Of a DNA stretch of 41,686 nucleotides, positions 3,370-11,789 are shown piece after piece. Location of the stretch: positions 1 to 41,686 of the forward strand of contig JANYDD010000010.1 of the NCBI GenBank assembly GCA_025359945.1, in the 5' to 3' direction. The notes beneath the pieces were generated by a model, which was not told the DNA's origin, did no database searches, and was given only the letters and a program-made list of their open reading frames with translations. The first letter of the stretch is position 1. The number at the start of each line of letters is the position of its first letter. A program made the position numbers and the translations under genes. Source of the DNA: Bdellovibrio sp. (GTDB taxonomy: Bacteria > Bdellovibrionota > Bdellovibrionia > Bdellovibrionales > Bdellovibrionaceae).

Positions 3370-3490
3370 CCGTTTTTCCCCCATTTGAATGCTCTGAATT
3401 GGAGCGTTTTGTTTTAAACAGATGAAGTTGCAATCGGAATGCCAAGATTCAAAAATTGACTTTAGAGTCTGTCATTGGCTTTGATGAGGT

Positions 3491-3886
3491 ATGAACAAAT
3501 ATCGGCTTTATCTTTTTTTGCAGGGTCTAACAGTGATCTTGGTTTTAGGGCTTTTTAGGTCGATCCCCGAACGACAACTAGCGGGTCTTATTGCCGGAAT
3601 CGTGTTCTTGTCGGTATCAGCTGGAATTTGTATTTATGAATTTAGATTTGGACAAAGTTTTAGGTCTTTGACCTTTTGGGGAACTTTAAGCTTTTTATTA
3701 TTTTCCGGACTCCCACTCTTTTTTTTAAGAATTGTAAATTGGGGAGTTCCGTTTGAAATGATTCAATGGGGCCCTTTTTCTGGCCCGCAACTTCACACAA
3801 TTTCCAACGTCATTTTTTTAATCATGCTGTTGGCAATTTTTGTGGATTCTTTAAAAGCTAGATTTCAAAAGGAATCGGAGAAATAG
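3491..3886 (+). CDS. Hypothetical four-helix membrane protein
   Basis: Function not recognised. The 131-residue protein has four evident hydrophobic segments: LFLQGLTVILVLGLF, GLIAGIVFLSVSAGICIY, LTFWGTLSFLLFSGLPLFF and ISNVIFLIMLLAIFV, joined by short polar loops, with a basic C-terminus (KARFQKESEK). It is therefore an integral inner-membrane protein. GAGG lies only one base before the ATG, an unusually short spacing. The last 29 bp overlap the convergent bS18 gene. Confidence 0.65.
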   Translation: MNKYRLYLFLQGLTVILVLGLFRSIPERQLAGLIAGIVFLSVSAGICIYEFRFGQSFRSLTFWGTLSFLLFSGLPLFFLRIVNWGVPFEMIQWGPFSGPQLHTISNVIFLIMLLAIFVDSLKARFQKESEK

Positions 3887-4118
3887 CTTCAGGGCGACCA
3901 GCCGTATCATAGGAATGACTGCCGGTTGGTACCAACGCTAAGTTACGAGCTTTCTTGATTTCTGCAGCTAATTTCTTTTGAAAAGTAATGGACATTTTTG
4001 AAATTCGAGCAGGAGTGATTTTGCCGCCATCAGTAATAAAACGAGCCAAAAATGTTGGATCTTTATAATCAAATTGGATTTCGCTTTTACTTTTTGAGTT
4101 TTTAGAGATTCTTTTCAT
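3858..4118 (-). CDS. rpsR: Ribosomal protein bS18, cysteine-free form
   Basis: The core FDYKDPTFLARFITDGGKIT, then PARIS, and KKLAAEIKKARNLALVP matches the bS18 pattern (IDYKD...L..YIT..GKI.P.RI......Q..LA..IKRAR.L.L.P). bS18 sits in the platform of the 30S subunit next to bS6. The N-terminus (MKRISKNSKSKSEIQ) lacks the RRK-C-R-C stretch found in many copies, and the protein has no cysteine. About 16 residues (SHSYDTAGRPEAISPIPFEI) extend the C-terminus. It is not next to rpsF or rplI, so it may be a paralogue of a canonical copy elsewhere, possibly used under zinc shortage; that is inference. AAGGA lies seven bases before ATG 4118. The 3' end overlaps the membrane protein by 29 bp. Confidence 0.88.
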   Translation of the reverse strand: MKRISKNSKSKSEIQFDYKDPTFLARFITDGGKITPARISKMSITFQKKLAAEIKKARNLALVPTGSHSYDTAGRPEAISPIPFEI

Positions 4119-4180
4119 CAGGGATCCTTCTTTCTTTATTGTCTTTAGTTCTTTTTTAATTCGTTCTTTAACTACTGTAC

Positions 4181-4271
4181 CTTAAGCCAAATCACCTTAA
4201 GCCGATCTATGTAAAGCCAATCTAAGTTAGGCTACTCTTTGTAAAGCTAAGCTACATAAAGCTACGTCTTT
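4181..4271. repeat. Six-copy degenerate tandem repeat, period about 15 bp
   Basis: Within the 362-bp gap between the divergent bS18 and bL28 genes, six consecutive 15-16 bp units share a TTAAGCC/TAAAGCT core: cttaagccaaatcac, cttaagccgatctatg, taaagccaatctaag, ttaggctactctttg, taaagctaagctaca, taaagctacgtcttt. The array starts about 60 bp upstream of the bS18 ATG. It may be a set of binding sites, part of the bS18 leader, or a decaying minisatellite. The rest of the gap (4272-4399) shows no gene. Confidence 0.7.
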
Positions 4272-4399
4272 AATTTGTCTTTTGGTAACCATTCTAGAAA
4301 CCATTCGTAAAAAAATATTTTTGCCGAAGTAGATTTACCAAATCAAAGATTGGTTGTGATCTAACGTCAACAGAGATTAGGGTCTACTCTATTTTTGAT

Positions 4400-4429
4400 T
4401 TGCCAACAAGCGGCTTTTCAGACTAATAA
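4400..4429 (+). promoter_or_regulatory. Possible sigma-70 promoter of the bL28-uL24 pair
   Basis: TTGCCA (4400-4405) and TAATAA (4424-4429) are separated by 18 bp. Transcription would begin about 45 bp before the bL28 ATG. This is a sequence match only. Confidence 0.35.
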
Positions 4430-4440
4430 AATCTTTCGGC

Positions 4441-4457
4441 TTCAGACTGAATCTGAA
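4441..4457. promoter_or_regulatory. Inverted repeat in the bL28 leader
   Basis: TTCAGA-CTGAA-TCTGAA is a perfect 6-bp inverted repeat with a 5-base spacer, 23 bp before the bL28 start. A related CGGCTTTTCAGACT occurs at 4411-4424 and CGGCTTCAGACT at 4437-4448, so the arm is partly duplicated. It could be a repressor operator or an RNA hairpin used in ribosomal protein autoregulation. The function is inferred. Confidence 0.3.
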
Positions 4458-4480
4458 ATGGAATCAAACACGGGGTATTT

Positions 4481-4861
4481 ATGAGTCGTTGCGAGCTTAG
4501 TGGTAAGGGTCCAGTTGTTAAAAACTTGGTCAGTCACTCGAATATTAAAACAAAAACAATTGCACAACCAAACGTTCAAAAAAAGCGGATTATGAGTCGT
4601 GCATTAAACGAAATGGTGCGACTTCAAATATCAACTAGCGCTATCAAGGATATGGAACACATGGGCGGGTTCGATATTTATATTCTGAACCAGGACAATA
4701 AAAAGTTGTCGCCGCGAGCTTTGACCGTGAAAAACAGAATTTTGCGAAAAATTAAGCCCAAAGTTGGTGCTAAGCCGGCAGAAACAGCTACAGAAACAGC
4801 ACTGACCTCAAAAACTGCAAAAGCCTCAAGAACCCCTGCTAAAAAAGGATCAAAAGCATGA
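4481..4861 (+). CDS. rpmB: Ribosomal protein bL28 with a basic C-terminal tail
   Basis: The N-terminal 75 residues match bL28: MSRCELSGKGPVVKNLVSHS, NIKTKTIAQPNVQKK, then VRLQISTSAIKDMEHMGGFD. bL28 is a 50S subunit protein. It has a single cysteine (Cys4) rather than the two CxxC pairs of zinc-binding forms, so it should not need zinc. The protein is 126 residues against the usual 60-80; the extra tail is rich in K, A and T (AETATETALTSKTAKASRTP). Its usual partner rpmG is absent. Its stop overlaps the start of the uL24 gene as ATGA, so the two are translationally coupled. It is divergent from the bS18 gene. Confidence 0.9.
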   Translation: MSRCELSGKGPVVKNLVSHSNIKTKTIAQPNVQKKRIMSRALNEMVRLQISTSAIKDMEHMGGFDIYILNQDNKKLSPRALTVKNRILRKIKPKVGAKPAETATETALTSKTAKASRTPAKKGSKA

Positions 4862-5121
4862 AACTGAAAGTAAAAAAAGGATCATCAGTTGAAGTGATCG
4901 CCGGGGCCGATCGAGGGAAAAAAGGCGCAGTGATCGAGGTTTTGCCTCAGTCCTTAATGGTTAAAGTGCAAGGTGTGAATATGAAAACCCACTTTGACAA
5001 AAAAGATGGTATCCTAAAGTCCGAAGGTTTTTTCGATTATTCTAACGTTCGTCTGGTTCAGCAGGCTGCAAAAGCGGCAACAAGGAAAAGTCCTAAAAAA
5101 TCAGAGTCCAAGTCGGCTTAA
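4858..5121 (+). CDS. rplX: Ribosomal protein uL24 (stand-alone copy)
   Basis: The KOW-type core KVKKGSSVEVIAGADRGKKG followed by VIEVLPQSLMVKVQGVNMKT and SNVRLVQ matches uL24, an assembly-initiating 50S protein that binds 23S rRNA. The protein is 87 residues with a short lysine-rich end (TRKSPKKSESKSA). In most bacteria rplX lies in the spc operon between rplN and rplE; neither is here, so this is a relocated or second copy. It overlaps bL28 by four bases (ATGA) and must be co-expressed with it. Whether a canonical copy exists cannot be told from this window. Confidence 0.88.
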   Translation: MKLKVKKGSSVEVIAGADRGKKGAVIEVLPQSLMVKVQGVNMKTHFDKKDGILKSEGFFDYSNVRLVQQAAKAATRKSPKKSESKSA

Positions 5122-5238
5122 ATTCCTTCTTAGTGATCGAAAAACTTCTTGAGTTTGCGGCATCTCATACCGATACATTTGTCATCGGTTGAGAGTCGCA
5201 TATCGCCGTACATCGCCTTAGTACGTCTAGGAGGGATC

Positions 5239-11252: not shown

Positions 11253-11789
11253 ATGGCAAAAAAGGTGAATAAAAAACCTGCAAAATCCGAATCTAAATCT
11301 GAAACAAAATCTGGCGGAAAAAAAGAATTGAAAAAAGAAACCACTAAAGTAACCACTAAAGTAGCCAGTAAAGAAGCTAGTAAATTAGCTAAGAAAGAAA
11401 CAAAAGAAGTCGCGGCTTCAAAAGTCGAACCTCAATCTGATAAAAACACTTCCCCAAAAGCCGAAAAGCCCGAGAAAGCTGCAAAAGTTAAAAAGCCAAA
11501 ATTGACCGTCGAAGAAAAAAAAGCAAACAGCGACGCTAAAAAAGCAGAAAAAGTAGCCGCTCAAGCTGCCGCGACCAACGCAGAAGAAAACCGCCAGTGG
11601 CAAGAATTTAAGGACAAATACGACGGAGAAAAAGTGGCGCAGTATTCGATGAAAGCTGCTTTTCAAGCTCAGCAAGCCATTCAGCACAAAATTCTGGGCT
11701 GGGGTTTTATTTTAAGCAACGTCAACGATCGCCTTGAGGTTTTGTTCGAATCCGGTAAAAAGATTTTAATCAGCAACTACCAAGGTTAG
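11253..11789 (+). CDS. Lysine/alanine-rich protein upstream of IF-1
   Basis: Function not recognised. ATG 11253 is chosen for the GAGGGAGG just upstream; an earlier in-frame start at 11223 lacks one. The N-terminal 105 residues are low complexity, dominated by K, A, S, E and T (histone-tail-like, for example KKETTKVTTKVASKEASKLA). The last 70 residues look folded (NRQWQEFKDKYDGEKVAQYS, then GWGFILSNVNDRLEVLFESG). The basic tail suggests nucleic acid binding. It starts a plus-strand run with IF-1 (12 bp downstream) and Tex, so a link to translation or transcription is plausible but inferred. Confidence 0.75.
   Translation: MAKKVNKKPAKSESKSETKSGGKKELKKETTKVTTKVASKEASKLAKKETKEVAASKVEPQSDKNTSPKAEKPEKAAKVKKPKLTVEEKKANSDAKKAEKVAAQAAATNAEENRQWQEFKDKYDGEKVAQYSMKAAFQAQQAIQHKILGWGFILSNVNDRLEVLFESGKKILISNYQG

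Follow-up and report, generated by a model that had tools for sequence, protein, structure and literature searches.

The window analysed here, a stretch of 41,686 nucleotides (contig JANYDD010000010.1, assembly GCA_025359945.1), is part of a 2.74-Mb draft genome that is 96% complete and belongs to a relative of Bdellovibrio. The nearest matches of its bL28 protein come from Bdellovibrio and from Bdellovibrionales metagenome bins, one of the bins being labelled Streptomyces griseus, and no bL28 relative was found in viral contigs. The genes encoding the ribosomal proteins bS18 (rpsR) and bL28 (rpmB) are divergent and separated by 362 bp, and between them lie six 15-bp units arranged head to tail. 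The features, in window coordinates, are as follows.

3858..4118, minus strand: rpsR, encoding bS18; over the Pfam cut-off, with no other S18 match detected in the 96%-complete genome
4126..4131, minus strand: AGAAGG, resembling a Shine-Dalgarno sequence and 7 nt upstream of the rpsR ATG, read from the sequence
4167..4181, no strand assigned: a seventh, more decayed unit, TTTAACTACTGTACC, with a mean identity of 7.3/15 to the six
4182..4271, no strand assigned: six 15-bp tandem units with the plus-strand consensus TTAAGCCAATCTATG; in array order TTAAGCCAAATCACC, TTAAGCCGATCTATG, TAAAGCCAATCTAAG, TTAGGCTACTCTTTG, TAAAGCTAAGCTACA and TAAAGCTACGTCTTT
4481..4861, plus strand: rpmB, encoding bL28; over the Pfam cut-off

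Right after rpmB, the window encodes a small KOW-domain protein (4858–5121), uL24-like on inspection. Elsewhere in the window there is a serine recombinase gene (548–2401); its frame crosses a tRNA gene (2316–2389) encoded on the other strand, which suggests an element inserted at a tRNA.

The initial annotation had described six head-to-tail units of constant 15-bp period at 4181–4271, and this periodicity is real. At lag 15, the best stretch of 75 comparisons contains 50 self-matches (starting at 4177; 47 from 4182), while the best scores in 2000 dinucleotide shuffles of 4119–4480 averaged 27.5 and peaked at 38, none reaching 50. The same score was reached by none of 500 shuffles when all periods from 5 to 40 were considered. 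The annotated span does contain the array but starts one base early, the true start being 4182. TWARGCY, which covers the annotated core TTAAGCC/TAAAGCT, fits all six units. The mean identity of the seventh unit was matched by 182 of 20000 letter shuffles, and the 15-mers further out, at 4152–4166 and 4272–4286, show no match to the units.

Pairs of units are identical at 6–12 of 15 positions. Due to this divergence, the array is weakly detected by two repeat-finding tools: Tandem Repeats Finder reported only a 30-bp period at 4206–4271 (score 76), and a general repeat search of the intergenic region did not list the 15-bp array. There is also a weak 5-bp sub-periodicity (lags 5, 10, 20 and 25 at z 2.4–3.4), and the 15-bp unit itself may have come from a pentamer repeat. 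Still, the same lag test yielded z 3.2 at lag 10 in an unrelated 13-bp array from another genome (see below), so the sub-period is weak evidence.

To place the array in its genome, we scanned 440,686 bases, the window included (16% of the genome), for repeats of comparable strength with periods of 8–40. Five were found; four of them are within long open frames and have a period of 9 or 12, and the rpsR array is the only one outside. The array is therefore uncommon in this genome yet ordinary in kind. DNA similarity within the own genome was limited to matches of at most 26 bases with E of 0.036 or worse. A 12-bp tandem repeat within a long open frame is seen at window 11279–11421.

The internal structure of the array bears on its origin. 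Not only the cores but also the spacer columns are related: their mean pair identity is 0.41 compared to 0.26 in shuffles, a value reached by 34 of 20000. This means that whole 15-mers were copied, rather than just a core being placed at intervals; a fixed core selected at constant spacing would be expected to have unrelated spacers. Similarity is greater between units one or two steps from each other than between more distant units, and only 10 of the 720 possible unit orders equal that, the cut at two steps having been chosen after the identities were known. Units 2 and 3 are the closest to the consensus (1 and 2 mismatches, respectively) and unit 6 is the farthest (8 mismatches), a pattern that stepwise tandem duplication can give. 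The array thus bears out the earlier suggestion of an old minisatellite. Its counterpart, selection on spacing, is not supported: when three measures of core conservation were compared to simulations of uniform decay, the observed values were reached in 1088, 2285 and 3877 of 20000 runs, so that column variation fits uniform decay and the core shows no clear excess over it, the invariant-column count (1088/20000) being borderline.

We then compared the locus in relatives. The two genes are adjacent and divergent at every one of the 117 loci, the own one included: 52 of 52 genomes with both genes (own included) plus another 65 of 65 loci. By source, 77 of the loci are from whole genomes, the own one among them, and the other 40 come from a second, overlapping collection. 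Among the 59 genomes searched, own included, 7 had no match for each protein, and in a further search of 66 genomes 9 had none. The 117 loci yielded 99 distinct intergenic sequences, which are not 99 independent species. The array is present in one of the 99, the window's own. The relatives were compared at the family and order level, the closest one seen having a bL28 identity of 80–81%. Absence of the array from relatives with an unchanged gene order, which the initial annotation had named as the sign of neutral repeat decay, is thus observed across the family and the order.

Similar arrays elsewhere were sought by the core. Double-core matches in the whole 2.74-Mb genome number six, five being the array itself and the sixth lying inside a gene; the reversed control gave nine. 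Triple cores at no more than two mismatches occur in 42 of the 59 genomes, and the reversed control also matches in most genomes; among the matches listed, exact ones occur only in the own array, and the remaining ones all lie away from the rpsR/rpmB locus. Two candidates for another TTAAGC-type array were rejected, as G023 C19 sits inside a gene and G010 C74 is a pentamer repeat next to a gene that we take to be cysK-like. The pentamer array of G010 beside the cysK-like gene is long, with TTAAG, TTAGA and CTAAG words and an N run inside (locus L176, 820–1085), and similar pentamer repeats are found in G004, G019, G027 and G048. In G055, from another family of the order, a 13-bp tandem array of 5.2 copies, TTCCTAGGACCTC, occupies the rpsR leader (locus L079, 452–519). 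It is unrelated to the 15-bp array; among the sequences seen, repeats have arisen in the predicted rpsR leader at least twice. Among the literature titles listed, none concerned the array described here.

These comparisons leave little room for a tandem operator, in which a regulator would bind several TWARGCY boxes and control rpsR, rpmB, or both. The core is indeed more uniform than the spacer across the six units, and the array lies between two divergent ribosomal genes. However, the other 98 distinct intergenic sequences lack the array at the locus, so that it is not kept in relatives as a conserved operator array would be, and the double-core survey revealed no second array in the genome: across the 2.74 Mb, the single further double core is intragenic, leaving no such double sites before other genes of a putative regulon. 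Spacers, like cores, are related to one another, and the array lies downstream of a promoter-like motif that is conserved, on its rpsR side (see below). Moreover, 15 bp is not a multiple of the DNA helical repeat, and hence successive sites would be on different faces of the helix. Binding of a regulator in several copies, as proposed initially, therefore seems very unlikely, although it is the least improbable of the alternatives that we considered.

The intergenic region contains one element that is common to the relatives. The sequence TTGCCA(A/T)CAAG is found at up to two substitutions in 69 of the 99 distinct intergenic sequences, 60 of them exact, and is missing at this threshold from the remaining 30. 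In the window, it is part of a promoter-like element at 4381–4429 of the form TTGCCA(A/T)CAAG...CTTTTT, common to rpsR and rpmB. We infer that the motif comprises the overlapping −35 regions of back-to-back promoters, TTGCCA for rpmB on the plus strand and TTGTTG (4409–4404) for rpsR on the minus strand, which gives the following features.

4119..4374, minus strand: predicted rpsR 5' leader of about 256 nt with the array inside, placed by the promoter position
4386–4381, minus strand: predicted rpsR −10 box TAGACC, spacing 17; TATAC- or TACAC-like in the aligned columns of relatives
4400..4410, no strand assigned: conserved element TTGCCAACAAG, an exact copy of the motif
4424..4429, plus strand: predicted rpmB −10 box TAATAA, spacing 18; from aligned columns

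The box on the rpsR side is at a constant spacing, with four positions kept in at least 90% of 64 sequences; the TATA-like boxes on the rpmB side are less uniform, 62–73% per position. A simple sigma-70 and terminator scan of 4050–4550 reported none, neither of the proposed promoters included. When 39 genomes were searched with the extended motif, 22 of the 28 matches were at the rpsR/rpmB locus, and the six at other sites each had one mismatch; the reversed control gave three matches. Such concentration at one locus makes the motif a testable candidate for the back-to-back promoter of two ribosomal genes.

From the start of the motif to the rpsR start codon there are 281 bp in the window, compared to a median of 61 bp (range 29–382) in the other 68 motif-bearing sequences, where the start was the ATG picked by a script as nearest to the expected position, so that single distances may be wrong. 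The rpsR side is thus about 220 bp above the median of relatives, and it is at least 150 bp long in 11 of the 69 motif-bearing sequences. As the motif is so far from rpsR, the array would be inside an unusually long predicted leader, with the decayed unit 48 nt and the first full unit 63 nt from the rpsR ATG. The array is likely transcribed within the rpsR leader, judging from its position downstream of the promoter-like motif that relatives share. The leader also seems to tolerate changes in length.

Alternatively, a mobile or foreign element may have inserted here and left a remnant, supplying both the extra leader length and the repeat. The roughly 220 bp by which the rpsR side exceeds the median of relatives would fit such an event, as would the serine recombinase gene, whose end is 1.8 kb from the array. 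On the other hand, no match was found in plasmids, and phages gave only 35 bp of pyrimidine-rich sequence, located outside the array and shared with three of them at E 8e-3. The repeats of the intergenic region are all short (one 11-nt direct pair and four inverted pairs of 10–17 nt) and none brackets the array, while several relatives have a long rpsR side without a strong repeat. We consider such an origin very unlikely, slightly more so than the operator.

To the same low degree we credit the possibility that the array contains a promoter for sigma28 (FliA). The sequence TTAAG-N15-CCGATC in units 1–2 (4182–4207, plus strand) would have TWARG as the FliA −35 box and form an attack-phase promoter, directing transcription antisense across the rpsR leader to rpmB. 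Its spacing of 15 is that of FliA promoters in E. coli. Still, when the cores were retained and the spacers randomised, 3023 of 20000 simulated arrays (about 15%) contained such a match. In the 440,686 bases scanned, the one-mismatch motif is not clearly enriched, with 8 and 9 occurrences at spacings 15 and 16 compared to 3 to 8 at others, and the respective counts for the TAAAG variant are 15 and 8 compared to 4 to 17; genome-wide, exact matches at spacings 14–17 number seven, as they do in the reversed control. The match to the attack-phase promoter consensus of B. bacteriovorus, TTAAG-N16-CCGATA, extends to 10 of 11 letters, but the published spacing is 16 rather than 15 (PMC3627812). A further FliA-like sequence, TTGAG-N16-CCGATA, with one mismatch to the published consensus (PMC3627812), is found at window 5149–5175 (plus strand). 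It precedes a small ORF, and the product of this ORF has a hydrophobic, signal-peptide-like start on inspection.

The array might also act as a cis-acting leader RNA controlling rpsR, either by binding bS18, in the style of the rpsF leader and the S6:S18 complex, or through a 25-codon upstream frame (4304–4227, minus strand) that runs into the array. The location within the predicted rpsR leader is in line with this. However, the leader and both array strands fold no better than shuffles, with MFE z-scores of +0.37 for the leader and +1.05 and +1.54 for the array strands, and this idea of the initial annotation is left unsupported. At the gathering score, Rfam had no match in the whole window other than a tRNA elsewhere, and below it, at E up to 5, the region 3400–5200 gave two weak, apparently unrelated matches. 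The upstream frame has no Shine-Dalgarno-like sequence before its start, as judged by eye, and most of the 68 motif-bearing relatives have a much shorter rpsR side (median 61 bp). A leader RNA is slightly less likely than an insert or a FliA promoter.

A coding repeat was rejected, as three of the six frames of the consensus contain a stop codon (by inspection) and the sole frame of at least 20 codons entering the array is the 25-codon one on the minus strand. Second bS18 copies under Zur control occur elsewhere; here such a copy was rejected, since the genome has one S18 match. The least probable reading of all makes the array a regulatory insert that is specific to this lineage and was acquired recently. 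Its TWARG boxes would recruit FliA, with a transcript antisense to the bS18 leader and towards rpmB, which would mean that ribosomal protein output is switched with the predatory cycle.

Taken together, we consider it probable that the array is a degenerate minisatellite that arose by slippage and decayed by point mutation in a tolerant leader, with no specific binding or RNA function. Replication slippage would most likely have multiplied a 15-bp stretch into tandem copies within the untranslated leader, which has the conserved divergent promoter on one side and the ribosome-binding site of rpsR on the other. The units would later have decayed through point mutation, the array at most making the leader longer. 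The array, its absence from the other 98 sequences, the conserved motif beyond it and the pattern of likeness between units are observed; slippage as the cause, as well as the promoter role of the motif, transcription of the array and its lack of function, is what we infer. Several observations argue against simple decay. Four of the 15 columns are invariant, and they are clustered (columns 1, 3, 5 and 6). The array is the only intergenic one of such strength in the 440,686 bases scanned. It also precedes a gene that is expected to be essential and was found once, so that drift might be constrained.

The locus shows that the leader of a single-match ribosomal gene accepts a repeat and large changes in length, while the intergenic motif is kept. 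A by-product of more use is the motif itself, TTGCCA(A/T)CAAG, flanked on either side by −10-like boxes whose spacing is nearly fixed.

Several known repeat and leader systems resemble the array in part. With the YTARR-type pentamer repeats in genomes of the family (for example G010, G004 and G019) it shares the weak 5-bp sub-period and similar words such as CTAAG; unlike the array, those repeats are near-perfect at 5 bp and located at other loci, and none was found in the own genome at the threshold used (three in the reversed-pattern control). With the rpsF leader it shares the position in the leader of a transcript encoding bS18. There, an S6:S18-binding structure precedes rpsF of the rpsF-rpsR operon, whereas here rpsR is divergent from rpmB, rather than in an rpsF operon, and no structure was found (PMC4647458). 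Units 1–2 resemble the FliA promoters of B. bacteriovorus in having a TTAAG box and CCGAT at a similar distance, and differ from the consensus in the spacing of 15 rather than 16 and in the last base, C (PMC3627812). The closest likeness is to the intergenic minisatellites and VNTRs of bacteria: the array is head-to-tail, above microsatellite size, intergenic and, here, seen in one lineage. It is much more diverged than VNTR loci used for typing, with the pair identity of 6–12 of 15, and a study of E. coli repeats required a unit of at least 20 bp and an identity of 90% (PMC2884548). Its period is nevertheless constant above chance, the whole unit is duplicated, and its pattern fits stepwise duplication, as theirs does.
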